From Deltaproteobacteria bacterium (lineage in GTDB: Bacteria; Desulfobacterota; GWC2-55-46), in NCBI GenBank assembly GCA_016219115.1, contig JACRCH010000021.1, positions 1 through 37,175 of the forward strand: a stretch of DNA of 37,175 nt, written 5' to 3'. Position 1 is the first letter of the stretch. Each line of letters begins with the position of its first letter. The notes below the pieces were generated by a model that saw nothing but the letters and a program-made list of their open reading frames with translations, did not search any database and was not told the DNA's origin. Shown here in pieces: positions 5,884-37,175 of this stretch. The position numbers and the translations under genes were made by a program.

Positions 5884-6000
5884 ATTAAAATTCTCCACCA
5901 TAAATGACGGAAAATTTTGATGGTATGGAAGGTCATTTTTATTTGCCAGCCTTGACCCGCCGCTAAAGCGACGGGATTGCGGAGTGGCACACCCATTCAA
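5884..6000 (+). repeat. Family B palindromic repeat (B1)
   Basis: This ~117-bp unit begins ATTAAAATTCTCC. Its left hairpin has 10-11-bp arms in the other copies (AAAATTCTCCG/CGGAGAATTTT), slightly mutated here. A second partial hairpin, CCCGCCGC-TAAA-GCGACGGG, follows, and the unit ends TGGCACACCCATTCAA. Four copies occur in the window: two + (B1, B2) and two - (B3, B4). It encodes no plausible protein and has no flanking transposase. Confidence 0.85.
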
Positions 6001-8102: not shown

Positions 8103-8155
8103 GCCCCTTCCAGGGCCTAAAACCCAGGTAGAGGCAGGTTGTAAAAGACAATCAA

Positions 8156-8270
8156 ATTAAAATTCTCCGCCATAAATGACTGAGAATTTTGATGGTATGG
8201 AAGGTCATTTTTATTTGCCAGCCTTGACCCGCCGCTAAAGCGACGGGATTGCGGCTGGCACACCCATTCA
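8156..8270 (+). repeat. Family B palindromic repeat (B2)
   Basis: This is a nearly full copy, between ilvD and ilvB. It runs from ATTAAAATTCTCCGCC through GATGGTATGGAAGGTCA to GGCACACCCATTCA. It differs from B1 by a few substitutions and one missing base near GCGGCTGGC. With B1 it directly flanks the DUF465-like gene and ilvD. Confidence 0.85.
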
Positions 8271-10082: not shown

Positions 10083-10199
10083 TTGAATGGGTGTGCCACT
10101 CCTTGACCCGTCGCTTTAGCGGCGGGTCAAGGAGTGGCAAATACAAATGATCTTCCATACCATCAAAATTCTACGTCATTTATGGCGGAGAATTTTAAT
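10083..10199 (-). repeat. Family B palindromic repeat, perfected hairpin variant (B3)
   Basis: This inverted copy lies between ilvB and ilvN. Unlike the other copies, both arms of its GC-rich half are complementary. Bases 10094-10114 pair with 10119-10139 over 21 bp (one G-T wobble) around a TTTA loop. The left-arm stretch that reads CGCAATCCCG in B4 is CCTTGACCCG here. The element ends GCGGAGAATTTTAAT. Confidence 0.85.
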
Positions 10200-18560: not shown

Positions 18561-19643
18561 GTGAAGCATTATAATGTCGCTGTTCTGCCGGGTGACGGCA
18601 TCGGCCTCGAGATAATGGGAGAAGCGGTAAAGGTATTAAAGGCCGTAGGCAGGAAGTTCAAGGCGGAGTTCGCACTGACAGAGGCGCTTGTCGGAGGCGC
18701 TTCGATAGACGCAAACGGCGTGCCGCTGACGGATGCGGTGCTTAAGCTCGCTTTAAAGAGCGACGCCGTGCTCCTTGGCGCCGTCGGCGGGACCAGGTGG
18801 GAAGGGCTCGATTATTCGATAAGGCCCGAGAGGGCGCTTCTGGCCTTGAGGAAAGAACTCGGGCTTTTCGCCAACCTCCGTCCGGCCAAAATATATAAAG
18901 ACCTCATCGCCGCCTCGACCTTGAAACCCGAGGTCATCGACGGGGTCGATCTTTTGGTAGTACGGGAGCTTACCGGAGGGCTCTATTTCGGCACGCCCAA
19001 GGGGGTAGAGGTGCTCCCGGACGGCACCGAGCGCGGGGTGAATACCATGGTTTACACGACCCCTGAGATAGAAAGGATCGCCAGGGTAGGCTTCGAGGTC
19101 GCCCGCAAGAGGAGAAAGAAGCTCTGCAGCGTCGATAAGGCCAATGTCCTTGAGACGACCGAGCTCTGGAGGAAGGTCGTAATAAAGGTCGGCAAAGACT
19201 ACCCGGACGTGGAACTGAGCCACATGTACGTGGACAACTGCGCCATGCAGCTTATTAGAAACCCCAAACAGTTCGACGTCATTGTGACCGAGAACACCTT
19301 CGGGGACATCCTCTCGGATGAGGCGTCCATGCTCACGGGCTCCATCGGGATGCTGCCGTCGGCAAGCCTCGGCGCGACGAAGAACAGGGCCATGTACGAG
19401 CCTATTCACGGGAGCGCCCCGGATATCGCGGGCAAAGGCATTGCCAACCCGATAGCCACGATCCTCTCCGTAGCCATGATGCTCAAGTACTCCTTCGAGA
19501 TGGAGGAGGCTTCAAACCTCATCGAGGACGCCGTGGAGAAGGTCCTTAACAGGGGATACCGCACCGCCGATATCGCGCTTCCCGGTGAAAAGAAGACGAC
19601 ATGCACGGAGATGGGCGAAGCGGTACTTAAAGAACTAGCGTAA
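18561..19643 (+). CDS. leuB: 3-isopropylmalate dehydrogenase
   Basis: LeuB is the NAD-dependent oxidative decarboxylation of 3-isopropylmalate, the last step before transamination to leucine. The 360 residues match family length. Motifs are [20 protein letters not shown], the substrate-binding arginines in [32 protein letters not shown], the catalytic Lys in SVDKANVLE, the metal aspartates in [18 protein letters not shown], and [16 protein letters not shown]. The start is GTG 18561 with GGGAGAAG upstream. It ends the leucine block and is followed at once by a T-run and repeat A4. Confidence 0.96.
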
Positions 19644-19655
19644 TTTTTTTTCAAA

Positions 19656-19899
19656 AATGAACCACCCCGCGGCAAGCTCCGGGGTATCAAACGAACAAAA
19701 AGAGGTTGTTCTCGATCCGCCGTACGCCAGTACCCCCTCCCTTGACGGGAGGGCTGGGCTCCCGTTGCGCTCTTCCGATGCAACGGGAAGCGGGGAGGGT
19801 GAAAACCTGTTTTCACCCCCACCCTATCCTCCCCCATCGAGGGGGAGGGTTTTACAAGAAAACCCTGTAGCTCGCTACAGGGAATTTTGTGATTAAAAT
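19656..19899 (+). repeat. Family A palindromic repeat, long form (A4)
   Basis: This is a full-length copy. It has the left hairpin AATGAACCACCCCG, then a middle with AACAAAAAGAGGTTGTT, GTACGCCAGTAC, CCCTCCC/GGGAGGG and CCCGTTGC/GCAACGGG palindromes, a CCTCCCCC/GGGGGAGG palindrome, and the right end CTACAGGGAATTTTGTGATTAAAA. It is nearly identical to inverted copy A5 at 23517-23743. A 79-residue ORF runs through it, but it has no ribosome site and the frame is broken in A6. Confidence 0.85.
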
Positions 19900-19990: not shown

Positions 19991-21970
19991 ATGCCATTTT
20001 TAAGATCATTGAACCCCCTGCAACTTAAGGCGGCCACCCACGGTGACGGGCCGCTATTGGTGCTGGCAGGGGCAGGGAGCGGAAAGACCAAGGTCCTGAC
20101 CTCGAGGATAGCGCACCTCGTGATAAATAAAAAGGTCCAGCCCGGGGGAATTCTCGCCGTCACCTTCACGAACAAGGCGGCAGCCGAGATAAAAGAGAGG
20201 CTTCAAGCCCTTATAGGGAAGAGTACCGGGGAGATGTGCCTCGGGACTTTCCATACCGCCGGCTTGAGGATATTGCAGGAAGAGGCGAAACAGGCCGTAA
20301 AAAAGGGGAAGCTGACAATCTTTGACGACGAGGAGCAGCTCCTGCTGGTCAGGCTCATCATGTCGGAGCTCTCACTGGACGAAAAGGACGTCCCCTCGAA
20401 GATGATACTCTATGAGATAAACCTCGCCAAGAACAACAACACGGGTGTCGAGGAGTACAGGGCCGCCTCCGATGATTCGCTCTCCAGGACTACTGCCGCC
20501 GTCTATTCGGTCTACCAGAAGAAACTCAAGTCGATGAACGCGGTGGACTTTGGAGACCTCATCTCGGAGCCTATCAGGCTCTTACAGTCGAACCCGGCGA
20601 TACTGGACAAGTACGGCTCGCGCTACAGATACATCCTGGTGGACGAGTACCAGGACACCAATATCTCCCAGTACACGCTCACGAGGCTCCTGGCGTCAAG
20701 GCACGGGAACCTTTGCGTCGTCGGAGACCCTGACCAGTCGATATACGGCTGGCGCGGGGCCAGCCTTAAAAACATACTTAACTTCAGGGAGGACTACCCC
20801 GGGGCGGTCGTGATAAAGCTCGAGCAGAATTACCGCTCGACGAAAAACATCCTCTCCGCGGCCAATTCCGTCATCAGGAACAACTCCGAGCGTCTGGACA
20901 AGACGCTGTGGACGGGCAACCACCACGGGGAGGCCGTACATTACGAGGAGTGTCTGAACGAGTATCAGGAGGCCCGTTTCGTCGTGAACAGGACGAGAAA
21001 ACTCATGAGCGAGGACGCTTCGATAAAGTACAGGGACTTTGTCGTTCTCTACAGGACGAACACGCAGTCGAGGACCTTCGAGGAGCTGTTTTTCGAGGAG
21101 GGGATCCCTTACAACATCATCGGGGGATTTAAATTCTTCGACAGGCGTGAGATAAAGGACACTCTCTCGTACCTCAAGGCGATAGTGAACCCGGACGACT
21201 CGCTCAATTTTTTGAGGATCATAAACGTCCCCCCCAGAGGCATCGGCAAGGCAGCGATAGAAAAGGTCCACTCGATAAGCCGTGACTTCGACCTCTCACT
21301 CTACGAGTCTTTCAGGAAGGCCGTAAACGACAGGGCATTCTCACGGGGCGGAGGTGTGGCTGATTTCATGGAGACCTTCGAGGCGATGCGTAGCGAATCT
21401 TCCGAGATGCCCATCCATGAGTTCACCTCGCGACTGCTTATCAGGACCGGGTACCTGGCCTTTTGGGACGCCAAGAAGACCGAGGACGTAGACGAGAGGC
21501 TTAAGAACCTCGACGGCCTCGTGGCATCGATAAAGAATTACGAAGTCAACCACCCCCGATCCACGATCGCCGATTACCTCAACCTTGTGGCCCTAATGAG
21601 CGACGCCGACGGTTTTAACGAGAAGCACAACAAGGTGACCCTCATGACGATACACTCGGCCAAGGGGCTTGAGTTCCCTTACGTATTCCTCACGGGTCTC
21701 GAAGAGGGGCTCTTCCCGCACAAGAGAAGCATTGAGGAGGAGACCGTCGAGGAGGAGAGAAGGCTCTGCTATGTCGGGATGACACGGGCCGGAAGGCAGC
21801 TCTTTTTACTGTCAGCCAAGAACAGGAGCTCAGGCAAGGAGACCAACCTCCAGGTCCGCTCCAGGTTCATCGAGGAGATAGACGCTGAGTACCTCAAGAA
21901 AAACGAGCTTGAACCCAAGGGAACGGCCGAGGAGCACATGGAGAAGATACGGAGGCTTTTGAATTCTTAA
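19991..21970 (+). CDS. UvrD/Rep-family ATP-dependent 3'-5' DNA helicase
   Basis: This is an SF1A helicase for DNA repair or replication-fork restart. It has 659 residues, close to Rep and shorter than typical UvrD or PcrA. Motifs in order are Q motif LNPLQLKAA, Walker A LAGAGSGKTKVLTSRI (about 25-40), Ia VTFTNKAAAEIKERL, Ib GTFHT, Walker B ILVDEYQDTN, III VVGDPDQSIYGWRGA, IV LEQNYRST, V LMTIHSAKGLEFPYVFLTGLEEGLFPH and VI EERRLCYVGMTRA. The C-terminal tail is short and lacks an obvious PcrA-type Tudor extension. UvrD, PcrA and Rep cannot be told apart safely here, so no symbol is given. ATG 19991 follows AAGGTGAG. Confidence 0.94.
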   Translation: MPFLRSLNPLQLKAATHGDGPLLVLAGAGSGKTKVLTSRIAHLVINKKVQPGGILAVTFTNKAAAEIKERLQALIGKSTGEMCLGTFHTAGLRILQEEAKQAVKKGKLTIFDDEEQLLLVRLIMSELSLDEKDVPSKMILYEINLAKNNNTGVEEYRAASDDSLSRTTAAVYSVYQKKLKSMNAVDFGDLISEPIRLLQSNPAILDKYGSRYRYILVDEYQDTNISQYTLTRLLASRHGNLCVVGDPDQSIYGWRGASLKNILNFREDYPGAVVIKLEQNYRSTKNILSAANSVIRNNSERLDKTLWTGNHHGEAVHYEECLNEYQEARFVVNRTRKLMSEDASIKYRDFVVLYRTNTQSRTFEELFFEEGIPYNIIGGFKFFDRREIKDTLSYLKAIVNPDDSLNFLRIINVPPRGIGKAAIEKVHSISRDFDLSLYESFRKAVNDRAFSRGGGVADFMETFEAMRSESSEMPIHEFTSRLLIRTGYLAFWDAKKTEDVDERLKNLDGLVASIKNYEVNHPRSTIADYLNLVALMSDADGFNEKHNKVTLMTIHSAKGLEFPYVFLTGLEEGLFPHKRSIEEETVEEERRLCYVGMTRAGRQLFLLSAKNRSSGKETNLQVRSRFIEEIDAEYLKKNELEPKGTAEEHMEKIRRLLNS

Positions 21971-22184: not shown

Positions 22185-22802
22185 TTGAAAAAAATGATAT
22201 TTTTTCTCTTTTTTCTCGGCGCCCTGACTTTTACGGCGCTGCCGCCCGGAGACTCGGACGCCTCTGGCAGCGGGACTTTGCCGACCGTTATCATAACAAG
22301 ACCGCCTGCCGCGGTCGTTATACCGGAGACGCGCTACGTATACTTTCTTCCGGACTTCGAGGAGAATATCTTTTTTTACCATGGCTCCTGGTACCGCGTC
22401 TATCTGGACGAGTGGTACAAGTCGAAGGGATACAACGGCCCATGGGCGCGCGTTCAGAAGGTCCCCGAGGCCGTCATGAAACTTCCGGCTGACTTCAGAA
22501 CGGTCCCTCCGGTACAGGAGAGGATATCGTACAGAGCCCTTAAGAAAAACTGGAGAGTCTGGGAAGAGAATAAGTACTGGGACAAAAAATCTCAAAAGGC
22601 CAGGAATAAAGAGCGGGAGAAGGCCCGCGGAAAGACCGGGGAAGAAACCAAAGAGCCGCCTGAAGCCGTTTTAAAAGAGAGACCGAAAGAAACACCTCCG
22701 CAGGGTGTTATAATGGAGACTCCGATGCACCCCGTTGAGGATGGCGCTCCGGAAGTAAAGAGCGCCGCACCGGATCTTTCTCAAGAGGCTCCGAAGCAGT
22801 AA
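22185..22802 (+). CDS. Secreted protein of unknown family, paralogue 1
   Basis: This 205-residue protein has a signal peptide (KKMIFFLFFLGALTFTALPPG). Its exported domain, about residues 45-135, has an aromatic-rich pattern: YVYFLPDFEENIFFYHGSWY, then YNGPWARV, VPEAVMKLPADFR and YRALKKNWRVWEENKYWD. The tail (about 140-205) is low-complexity, rich in Lys, Glu and Pro. The domain is clearly homologous to the next gene, so these are tandem duplicates. The start is TTG 22185 or ATG 22194; GGGGG lies upstream. I do not recognise the family. Its many Trp, Tyr and charged residues suggest a periplasmic or surface protein. Confidence 0.75.
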   Translation: MKKMIFFLFFLGALTFTALPPGDSDASGSGTLPTVIITRPPAAVVIPETRYVYFLPDFEENIFFYHGSWYRVYLDEWYKSKGYNGPWARVQKVPEAVMKLPADFRTVPPVQERISYRALKKNWRVWEENKYWDKKSQKARNKEREKARGKTGEETKEPPEAVLKERPKETPPQGVIMETPMHPVEDGAPEVKSAAPDLSQEAPKQ

Positions 22803-22860
22803 GCGCCTTGACTCGAAAAAAAACTTTATTGCTGTCAACTTGTTGTTTTTAAAGGCTTTT

Positions 22861-22870
22861 CACTTAAGTG
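22861..22870. other. Perfect 10-bp palindrome CACTTAAGTG
   Basis: This symmetric site lies in the 157-nt gap before the second secreted-protein gene. The same gap has GTTGTTTTTAAA twice, about 80 nt apart. It is a candidate operator only. Confidence 0.25.
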
Positions 22871-22959
22871 CCATTTGCTACATACAAATAAATTCAAGTC
22901 TGGTATTCTGGCAGCCGATATGAGGCAGTCGTTGTTTTTAAAAGAAGGAGGCCGGAGTT

Positions 22960-23454
22960 ATGAAAAGAAAGTTTTTAGCGTTACTCATCGGTGCTTTCGC
23001 TGCCTCAATCGGGTATCCCGGAGCCGTCCATGCGTGGGTCGACTTCAACGGAATGAACCCCCATGTTTCCGACGGCGTTTACACGGTTCAGCCCGACGCT
23101 GTACCTGTGCCCGGCACCAATGTGTACATAGCCCCTGATTATGACGACGATATAATATTCTACCACGACTACTGGTACAGGGTGAACGAAGGCAGCTGGG
23201 ATGTGGCCAGGGATTACAACGGCCCCTGGGCTTATGCCCCTGTCGAGAGGGTCCCGGTGGAGCTTTTGAAGCTCCCGGCGGATTACCGGCGTATCGCGTC
23301 CTCACACGTAAGGATCCCGTACTCCCAGCTTAAAAGCAATTGGAAGGCGTGGGAAGAGGAGAAGCGCTGGGATAGGCATGCCGTAACAGAGATGCACAGG
23401 TACTACAGGGACTCCGCTTACGGCGTCGGCACTGAAGTCCGTAACGGGCATTAG
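22960..23454 (+). CDS. Secreted protein of unknown family, paralogue 2
   Basis: This 164-residue protein has a clear signal peptide (MKRKFLALLIGAFAASIGYP) with a likely cut after AVHA. The exported part repeats the pattern of the preceding gene: VYIAPDYDDDIIFYHDYWYR, then YNGPWAY, ERVPVELLKLPADYR, IPYSQLKSNWKAWEEEKRWD. It lacks the long charged tail of paralogue 1. A strong ribosome site AAGGAGG lies about 9 nt before the ATG. Function and family are unknown to me. The conserved FYH--WYR, YNGPW, VP--LLKLPADYR and K-NW--WE--K-WD blocks define a searchable domain of roughly 90 residues. Confidence 0.8.
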   Translation: MKRKFLALLIGAFAASIGYPGAVHAWVDFNGMNPHVSDGVYTVQPDAVPVPGTNVYIAPDYDDDIIFYHDYWYRVNEGSWDVARDYNGPWAYAPVERVPVELLKLPADYRRIASSHVRIPYSQLKSNWKAWEEEKRWDRHAVTEMHRYYRDSAYGVGTEVRNGH

Positions 23455-23516: not shown

Positions 23517-23743
23517 TTTAATCACAAAATTCCCTGTAGCTTGCCCTTGTAAAACCCTCCCCCTCGATGGGGGAGGGTAGGGGTGAAAAAAATGTTTACA
23601 CCCTCCCCGCTTCCCGTTGCATCGGAAGAGCGCAACTGGAGCCCAGCCCTCCCGTCAAGGGAGGGGGTACTGGCGTACGGCGGATCGAGAACAACCTCTT
23701 TTTGTTCGTTTGATACCCCGGAGCTTGCCGCGGGGTGGTTCAT
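23517..23743 (-). repeat. Family A palindromic repeat, long form, inverted (A5)
   Basis: This is the reverse complement of A4 with very few changes; the first ~150 bases of the unit show about one substitution by eye. It lies between the convergent secreted-protein gene and the DUF1998 helicase gene. Its several hairpins may also act as a two-way terminator. A small CCCGCG-TTAG-CGCGGG hairpin precedes it near 23463. Confidence 0.85.
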
Positions 23744-23765
23744 CAGTCTGAAAAACTTCGGGGCT

Positions 23766-26069
23766 TCAGACCTTGCCGGGTTCTTTAAGCCATTCGTCGA
23801 GAATCATTACCGCTCCCCGTTTATCGAGGGGTTCGTTATTATTGCCACATTTGGGGTCCTGTGTGCAAGATGGGCATGCGACTTCGCACGCGCACTCCTT
23901 CATAAGCCTTGCGGTGTCGCCGAACCAGTCGGCGACGCACTCGAAACCCCTCCGCGTTAAACCAACCCCCCCTTCGTGGCCGTCGTAGATGAAGATGGCC
24001 GCGCTCTGCATCTGCGGGTTGTACTCGTAGCTCACCCCTCCGAGGTCCATCCTGTCGCACAGGGCGAAGAGCGGCAGAGCCGCTATCGCGGCGTGTTCCA
24101 CCGCGTGCAGCGACCCGCCGACGCTGTAGCCCTTTTTCTTTATCGTTCCCAGTATCCCCGGATCGACCTTCATCCATATCCCGACCGTGGTAAAGACCGA
24201 GGGCGGAAGTTCCAGCGGGAACTCTCCGAGGGTGCGGTCGTTGTGGATCTGCTTTTTCCTGTAGCCTGTCACCCGCTCCGTTATCCTCAGAGTCCCGAGG
24301 TTCACCGTAGTCCCGTTCAGACCCGTCGAGCCGGCTACCGTCATTATCTCGGACTCCTCGTTTGAGATGGGTCTGGTGTAGTAGTAGACGTCGTTTGCCC
24401 CCCTGCACCAGACCTTCCTTTCGGCCATGTCGAGCTTTACGACCCTGTACTGCACCCCCTTATGAAGATATATGGCGCCGGGGTGTAGGTCGAAGAGCAC
24501 CCGGGCGGAGCTGGATTCCCCGAGAGGTTTCCCGTCCTCTTTTACTATCGCGTAGGTCTCTCCGGCCTCCCGTATCGAGACCTCCATCTGCGGCAGTCTC
24601 TTTCTCGGATACCAGATGTCGCCCTTGAGCCAGTGCCTGACCTTGCCTTCCCGTTCAAGCTCTTCGAGTATCGGGGTGAACCTGGGTATGTCGTAGACGG
24701 CGTCGTCATGCCTCAAGTTGGCCTCCGACGCCGCGCAGAGAAGATGCGACTTCAATATGGAGCGGTTCTCGCTGTCCAGGACCGCCGCCTCGGCGTTACG
24801 CCTGAAAAAATCGGAGGGGTGGCGCATGAAGTACTGGTCCAGGGCGTCGGTCATCGCCACCATGACGATGAGGGAGTCGCGCCCGCTCCTGCCGACCCTG
24901 CCGCTTCTCTGCCAGGTGGAGCTTATGGTGCCGGGGTATCCGACGAGTATGCAGACATCGAGGCCGCCGATATCGACCCCGAGCTCCAGCGCGCTTGTCG
25001 AGATGACGCCCGAGAGCTCTCCGCTGAAGAGCTTGCTTTCTATCTCGCGCCTCTCCTCCGGCAGAAACCCGGCCCTGTAGGAGCTGATGCTGGAGCCTAT
25101 GTCAGGGGCGCCGTCCTTTACCCAGGAGTGCATGAGCTCGGTGATCTTTCTTGCCTTGGTGAAGGCTATGGTCTTCAAGCCCGCCCTGACCGAAGAGACG
25201 AAGAGTTTTGTGGCGATAGTATAAGGGCTTACCTCGGGCATAGGGTTGATGAAGAGGAAGTTTCTTTTGCCCTGCGGGGCAAAGCTTTTTTCGATGACCT
25301 CGAACCTGAGCCCCGTAAGCATCCGAGTCAATTCAGCCGGGTTGGCGATGGTGGCGGAGCAGGCGATAAAGACCGGGTCGCTGCCGTAGAGGTTGGCGAT
25401 CCTGCGGAGCCTCCTTAAGACATGGGCCACATGAGAGCCGAAGACGCCCCTGTAGGTGTGGACCTCGTCTACTATCACGTATTTGAGGTTCCCAAGAAAC
25501 CTCTCCCACTTCTGGTGGAAGGGGTTTATCGCCAGATGGAGCATGTCCGGGTTGGTCATCACGACAGCCGGAGGGGTCTCCCTGATCTTTTTTCTCCTGT
25601 AGGCCGTCGTGTCGCCGTCGTATATCTCGCAGAGCGACGGGACGAAGGACTTTCTGCCCTTTGTTTTGACCGAGGCGCCCCTCTCCAACGGCAGCCCCGC
25701 GGTCAGTTCCCTGAAGGCCTTGAGCTGGTCCTGCTCAAGGCCTTTCAGGGGGAAGAGGTAAAGGGCGTGAGTATCGGGGTCCTTCATGAGCGACTCCACC
25801 ACGGGGATATTGTATATGAGGCTTTTGCCGCTCGCCGTGGGGGTCATTATGACGGTATTGCGGCCTTCCCGTATCAGGTCTATTGCTCCGGCCTGATGCT
25901 CGTAGAGGGTCTTTATGCCGAGAGAGCCAAGTCCGTCCCTGACCTCTTTTGAGAGGGGTATTCGGGGCTCAGAGCAGATAGCTTGCTTCGGCGGGATCTC
26001 CTCGTGGTGAACGACTTCCCGAAGGTCTTTACGGTCCTTGATATCCGCTATGAGGTCGTCTATCAGCAT
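23766..26069 (-). CDS. MrfA/Hrq1-like DEAD-box helicase with DUF1998 domain
   Basis: This SF2 DNA helicase has 767 residues. The RecA-like core has the Q region YEHQAGAIDLIREGRN, Walker A TPTASGKSLIYNIP, VMTNPDMLH, Walker B IVDEVHTYRG, SAT (ACSATIANP), STSALELGVDIGGLD and QRSGRVGRSGRDS. After a winged-helix-like region, the C-terminal DUF1998 region has HEGGVGLTRRGFE and the four-Cys metal site CACEVACPSCTQDPKCGNNN. This layout is that of B. subtilis MrfA (YprA) and yeast Hrq1, which act in repair of mitomycin-type damage. The nuclease partner MrfB is not adjacent. It is last in a minus-strand operon behind resC-resB. Confidence 0.9.
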   Translation of the reverse strand: MLIDDLIADIKDRKDLREVVHHEEIPPKQAICSEPRIPLSKEVRDGLGSLGIKTLYEHQAGAIDLIREGRNTVIMTPTASGKSLIYNIPVVESLMKDPDTHALYLFPLKGLEQDQLKAFRELTAGLPLERGASVKTKGRKSFVPSLCEIYDGDTTAYRRKKIRETPPAVVMTNPDMLHLAINPFHQKWERFLGNLKYVIVDEVHTYRGVFGSHVAHVLRRLRRIANLYGSDPVFIACSATIANPAELTRMLTGLRFEVIEKSFAPQGKRNFLFINPMPEVSPYTIATKLFVSSVRAGLKTIAFTKARKITELMHSWVKDGAPDIGSSISSYRAGFLPEERREIESKLFSGELSGVISTSALELGVDIGGLDVCILVGYPGTISSTWQRSGRVGRSGRDSLIVMVAMTDALDQYFMRHPSDFFRRNAEAAVLDSENRSILKSHLLCAASEANLRHDDAVYDIPRFTPILEELEREGKVRHWLKGDIWYPRKRLPQMEVSIREAGETYAIVKEDGKPLGESSSARVLFDLHPGAIYLHKGVQYRVVKLDMAERKVWCRGANDVYYYTRPISNEESEIMTVAGSTGLNGTTVNLGTLRITERVTGYRKKQIHNDRTLGEFPLELPPSVFTTVGIWMKVDPGILGTIKKKGYSVGGSLHAVEHAAIAALPLFALCDRMDLGGVSYEYNPQMQSAAIFIYDGHEGGVGLTRRGFECVADWFGDTARLMKECACEVACPSCTQDPKCGNNNEPLDKRGAVMILDEWLKEPGKV

Positions 26070-29196: not shown

Positions 29197-29411
29197 GATG
29201 AACCCCCCGGAGCAACCTCCGGTATCAAACGAACAAAAAGAGGTTGTTCTCGATCCGCCGTACGCCAGTACCCCCTCCCTTGATTGCGAGGGCTGCGCTC
29301 CCGTTGCGCTCTTCCGATGCAACGGGAAGCGGTGGGGGTGAAAACATTTTTTCACCCCTACCCTCCCCCATCGAGGGGGAGGATCAAGCTACAGGGAATT
29401 TTGTGATTAAA
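29197..29411 (+). repeat. Family A palindromic repeat, long form (A6)
   Basis: This is a diverged full-length copy (AATGAACC variant GATGAACCCCCCGG, then AACAAAAAGAGGTTGTT, GTACGCCAGTAC, CCCGTTGC/GCAACGGG, right end CTACAGGGAATTTTGTGATTAAA). Relative to A4 it has several substitutions and indels that break the ORF found in A4 and A5. It ends 38 nt before the phosphoesterase ATG. Confidence 0.82.
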
Positions 29412-37015: not shown

Positions 37016-37040
37016 GTTTTAATATTTCCTTCGGGTTGAA
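37016..37040 (-). repeat. Second copy of the 25-bp TTCAACCCGAAGG element
   Basis: GTTTTAATATTTCCTTCGGG with TTGAA is the inverse of 17499-17523 with one mismatch. Here it abuts and overlaps the end of B4. Confidence 0.6.
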
Positions 37041-37152
37041 TGGGTGTGCCACTCCGCAATCCCGTCGCTTTAGCGGCGGGTCAAGGCTGGCAAATAAAAA
37101 TGACCTTCCATACCATCAAAATTCTCCGTCATTCATGGCGGAGAATTTTAAT
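37036..37152 (-). repeat. Family B palindromic repeat (B4)
   Basis: This inverted copy near the right window edge runs from TTGAATGGGTGTGCCACTCC to GGCGGAGAATTTTAAT. The hairpin AAAATTCTCCG/CGGAGAATTTT is perfect, and the GC-rich half has the common, imperfect arms (CGCAATCCCGTCGC-TTTA-GCGGCGGG). Confidence 0.85.
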
Positions 37153-37175
37153 TAAGCGCTGTTTGCCGCGTATAC

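Follow-up and report, generated by a model that had tools for sequence, protein, structure and literature searches.

An uncatalogued aromatic domain of exported bacterial proteins with a possible role at the cell envelope

Two adjacent genes, here called P1 and P2, lie in a 37,175-nucleotide stretch of a deltaproteobacterial genome (contig JACRCH010000021.1; hereafter the window) and encode proteins with Sec-like N-termini and a common domain. This domain is real, widespread in bacteria and uncatalogued, and is not private to the window's genome; it occurs in about one fifth of the sampled genomes of the window's phylum, yet neither Pfam nor NCBIfam has a model for it, and a definition of its module would allow many exported proteins now called 'hypothetical' to be named. 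We propose, with a probability of roughly 0.45, that P1 and P2 are small periplasmic or outer-membrane-associated envelope proteins whose exposed aromatic residues touch a polymer of the envelope; both this ligand and which face is exposed are what we infer. The family is probably an ordinary but unstudied family of envelope proteins.

Results

The P1 and P2 genes

The first-pass annotation of this DNA had described two genes for signal peptides followed by the same domain of about 90 residues, one with an added Lys/Glu/Pro-rich tail of about 65 residues. Both open reading frames (ORFs), the common domain and every motif quoted there were found, and the features are as follows (a slash marks the cleavage-like site).

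22185..22802, + strand: P1 gene, TTG start, 205 aa, with signal peptide, aromatic beta module, K-K-N-W helix and Lys/Glu/Pro-rich tail (ORF)
22185..22265, + strand: P1 signal peptide, residues 1-27, by eye (K-K, hydrophobic run, cleavage-like S-D-A/S)
22311..22520, + strand: P1 core beta module, about residues 43-112 (profile and alignment A2)
22596..22799, + strand: P1 Lys/Glu/Pro-rich tail, residues 138-205, probably disordered (composition)
22960..23454, + strand: P2 gene, ATG start, 164 aa, with signal peptide, aromatic beta module and K-S-N-W helix (ORF, profile matches, AF2 model)
22960..23034, + strand: P2 signal peptide, residues 1-25, by eye (K-R-K, hydrophobic run, V-H-A/W)
23086..23295, + strand: P2 core beta module, about residues 43-112, strands and then two short helices (AF2 model, conserved columns)
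23317..23430, + strand: P2 C-terminal helical hairpin with K-S-N-W-K-A-W-E-E-E-K-R-W-D (AF2 helices 96-108 and 111-132, mature numbering)

In BLASTP, P1 and P2 are 36% identical over 159 aligned positions (E 2e-32), as expected of the paralogues they had been taken for. Judged by eye, the N-termini of P1 (MKKMIFFLFFLGALTF..SDA/SG) and P2 (MKRKFLALLIGAFAAS..VHA/W) are both like Sec signal peptides, in agreement with the annotation; the position of the P1 TTG start is common to the frame of a sibling genome, in which codon 4 is not an ATG. The tail described earlier belongs to P1, where it spans 68 residues (138-205) of which 31% are K or E and 15% are P, with no aromatics, while F, W and Y make up 21.5% of the P1 core. 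The pair is flanked by uvrD (19991-21970) on one side and by a DEAD-type helicase gene (23766-26069, minus strand) on the other, and the wider surroundings in the window are leucine-biosynthesis and housekeeping genes.

Distribution of the family and searches of catalogued families

Members of the family were found in 63 of 297 genomes of the window's phylum and in 17 of the 30 genomes of its own family, a count that includes one stop-broken copy. That copy (genome G027, contig C12, 64467-64970; L206/L211/L212) carries stops and frame changes and represents a pseudogene or else an error of assembly. Of 59 relatives, 18 gave profile matches to the P2 domain. When public genomes were scanned with a degenerate motif that required K-K-[NH]-W-[KR]-x-W-E, 33 loci were returned from Nitrospirota, Edwardsbacteria and the former, broadly defined Deltaproteobacteria, and this number undercounts the family because members without the motif are excluded. 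No plasmid homologues of P2 were found.

Pfam and NCBIfam gave nothing even at E 0.01 for P1, P2, 18 members of the family or the two- and three-module relatives described below, and PDB sequences gave nothing significant for single, double or triple forms. Of the profile searches proposed at first pass, those of Pfam and NCBIfam thus ended without a strong match to a characterised domain, and the view that the domain is unrecognised and assignable to no family holds for these curated libraries, also for the 18 relatives scanned.

Domain anatomy and predicted fold

The common domain had been described as one unit of about 90 residues; that it is common to both proteins stands, but it consists of two pieces, an aromatic beta module of about 70 residues and a C-terminal K-K-x-W-x-x-W-E helix. 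In mature P2 the beta module covers residues ~20-85 and the helical segment ~95-132. An alignment of 68 members shows Y56, F67, W80 and P99 (P2 numbering) to be invariant and W72, W90 and W128 nearly so, with positions 73 and 109 aromatic in every case. A second conserved aromatic set (positions 66, 68, 71, 73 and 81) alternates with core residues along the strands. Tails are rich in K, E, R and P and highly variable across the family, and nearly all N-termini are Sec-like, with at least one member (L017) lipobox-like.

The AF2 model of mature P2, built from the 68-sequence alignment, reached a pLDDT of 81.5 and a pTM of 0.70, in line with the earlier expectation of a defined fold. Strands are modelled at residues 22-24, 31-33, 39-43, 46-51, 54-58 and 66-68, followed by helices and a final hairpin at 96-132, so that the fold is confidently predicted as a beta-meander plus a helical hairpin.

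Two- and three-module relatives

By hmmsearch, the beta module occurs twice in one relative (L100) and three times in exported proteins of 800-950 aa (L086-L091). Profiles of the single-module and three-module proteins align with a probability of 97% (E 8e-11, 72 columns; hhalign). The beta module is the sole piece that P1 and P2 have in common with these multi-module proteins, which in the triple form have their own N-terminal region and G/Y-rich C-terminus and no K-K-x-W-x-x-W-E helix. An AF2 model of the triple form repeats the P2 strand order in its modules (pTM 0.61), and the packing of the modules in it is unsure. The two genes had been read as a tandem pair of paralogues; the paralogy stands, whereas the private pair gives way to a broad family whose core module is a repeat unit of larger exported proteins.

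A QseEGF-like sigma-54 context in a subset of relatives

QseE-QseG-QseF (GlrK-GlrR) of Enterobacteriaceae is an envelope-sensing system, and the QseF site is TGT-N12-ACA (PMC6075780). A similar arrangement adjoins the family gene in seven loci that span three lineages, among them Nitrospirota (L038) and another family of the window's phylum (L110). A histidine kinase, a QseG-like lipoprotein and an NtrC-type regulator are encoded, in the order of the enterobacterial system, directly upstream of the family gene in L038, L041, L042, L044, L051 and L110, and a QseF-like regulator alone in L050. In all seven the operon starts with a sigma-54 promoter, whose sequence is TGGCAC-N5-TTGC or TTGTA apart from minor deviations. 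This promoter is followed by a glycine-zipper lipoprotein gene (identified via clustering) and then the family gene in L041, L042, L044, L050 and L051, by a BON-like lipoprotein gene (by eye) and then the family gene in L110, and by the family gene alone in L038. Exact TGT-N12-ACA sites lie upstream in six of the loci (L038, L041, L042, L044, L050 and L110), eight sites against 0.41 expected, and the site in L051 fits at five of six positions; as in Enterobacteriaceae, these sites and the sigma-54 promoter adjoin the regulator genes.

A QseF-like regulon appears to be conserved across Nitrospirota and several deltaproteobacterial lineages, and the presence of sigma-54 and QseF-type sites in three lineages offers a concrete and testable link to envelope sensing outside Enterobacteriaceae. 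While the targets of QseEGF in E. coli are glmY and rpoE, the apparent target in the related loci is an envelope-protein operon. Paired palindromes (TGTATG-N6-CATACA, exact or degenerate by locus), about 80 bp apart, were also seen upstream of the sigma-54 promoters in L038, L110, L041-L044 and L050-L051.

The QseEGF-like system is absent from the neighbourhood of P1 and P2, whose upstream regions have neither a TGT-N12-ACA site nor a sigma-54 promoter. The window's genome has no exact QseF-type site, its one-mismatch sites are not clearly above the control pattern, and the best regulator match in it has an identity of only 48%. We restrict the link to the seven loci because exact adjacency and promoter sites occur there, while the other loci look like controls: NtrC-type regulators were found in 6 of 40 other family loci versus 5 of 40 control regions, and a family-wide neighbourhood link to two-component systems was rejected. 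A family-wide sigma-54 promoter was likewise deemed unsupported (3 of 72 at a score of at least 20, against 0.58 expected). Within about 100 bp upstream of the start, 96 genes had 4 sigma-54 sites where 0.27 were expected (P about 2e-4), in a region picked post hoc.

Discussion

Proposed function and alternatives

In the reading that we prefer, P1 and P2 would be exported by Sec and be soluble in the periplasm or at the inner face of the outer membrane, and both copies would do the same job. Residues Y56, F67, W72, W80, W90 and P99 (P2) would build the core of the aromatic beta-meander. The aromatics at 66, 68, 71, 73 and 81, judging from strand alternation and not from coordinates, probably line an exposed surface, which would most likely meet peptidoglycan, lipopolysaccharide or exopolysaccharide. 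The basic and aromatic C-terminal helix and the variable charged tails may help to keep the protein close to the wall or membrane. A QseE-QseG-QseF-like sigma-54 system likely controls the gene directly in some lineages, and the gene is apparently co-transcribed there with small envelope lipoproteins, so that a role in envelope maintenance or stress is likely.

We favour contact with a polymer because the module is exported, conserved and aromatic, is used singly or in tandem and in places is under apparent envelope-stress control. Its repetition two or three times in relatives suggests binding by analogy, since binding modules often are repeated. Of the earlier suggestion that the domain is envelope- or matrix-binding, the envelope role is plausible and the binding is something that we infer. 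A broader picture, in which this is an undescribed envelope-polymer-binding domain, single or tandem, of several phyla and in some of them the effector of a QseEGF-like system, whose known targets elsewhere are regulators and not structural proteins, is offered tentatively, as possible but doubtful.

It is also conceivable, though on the whole we think it unlikely, that these are structural or chaperone-like periplasmic stress proteins that have a role like that of small glycine-zipper or BON-domain proteins, bind no specific polymer and carry charged tails that act as solubilising or holdase segments. The glycine-zipper and BON-like lipoproteins in the operons of the subset, OmpA-like neighbour genes in L055 and L110, and K/E/R/P-rich tails that differ so strongly across the family all agree with such a role; however, a binding surface would explain better than a generic holdase why some ten aromatic positions are strictly conserved and why large proteins repeat the module. 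A carbohydrate-binding module of the CBM5/12 type is very improbable. It owes its place here to plasmid homologues of the triple form (e.g. in Pseudoalteromonas), which are named 'carbohydrate-binding family V/XII' or 'SH3 domain-containing protein' in GenBank. By hhalign and hmmsearch the window's domain is the aromatic module of ~70 residues contained in the proteins so named, which are likewise exported, but the window proteins, with 205 and 164 aa and one module, do not have their three modules and long N- and C-terminal regions. CBM5/12 and SH3-like domains are, as the P1/P2 module is, small, aromatic-rich, beta-rich and exported. Neither name has a profile match behind it in Pfam or PDB sequences: Pfam up to E 1, CBM_5_12 included, matched none of the 18 single-module members or the two- and three-module proteins, no SH3-like profile (SH3b and similar) in Pfam matched single- or multi-module proteins, and Foldseek returned SH3 entries only at E>3 with probabilities of at most 0.03. 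The carbohydrate-binding name of the larger relatives fails on testing at the level of sequence.

A blade-like module that forms a ring or propeller, within one chain in the large proteins and by oligomerization in the small ones, is very improbable. With the single module, local Foldseek matches to the PDB are indeed in many cases parts of five-bladed propeller enzymes, with one fragment of tachylectin-2, and weak propeller matches recur with the three-module model; but the single-module matches all fall short of significance (E 0.95 at best, no probability above 0.21), which also leaves CBM5/12 and SH3-like domains with no significant fold match. Moreover, the three-module model, with its modest pTM and unsure module packing, is nearest to Polo-box domains, also weakly (E 0.006, probability 0.54, TM 0.14-0.19).

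Selection and history of the gene pair

Genes of the P1/P2 type evolve under purifying selection: P1 compared with its sibling-species ortholog has a dN/dS of 0.18, closer orthologs have 0.10-0.16 and uvrD has 0.08. In the sibling genome, one contig carries leuB and uvrD and then stops inside P1, and another opens with the end of P1 and continues into the helicase gene with no P2 in between; either the window's lineage therefore gained P2 or the sibling lost it. A recent tandem duplication was considered and rejected, given this sibling without P2, an identity of 41% in the full alignment of P1 and P2 with synonymous sites saturated, and a support of 91/42 for their grouping in the tree. The tree does not settle whether the two are each other's closest kin; by their sequences they are best read as old paralogues.

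The window also contains two interspersed repeats. An intergenic repeat of ~180 bp occurs at 19642-19820, 23580-23758 (inverted, just 3' of P2) and 29221-29369, in copies that are 84-100% identical; it is present in the sibling genome too (L039:1-140) and gives rise to the spurious ORF 'MNHPAASSGVSNEQKEVVLDPPYASTP'. The second, of ~65-117 bp, occurs at 5884-6000, 8155-8254, 10135-10199 and 37036-37153, in both orientations and with 92-98% identity.
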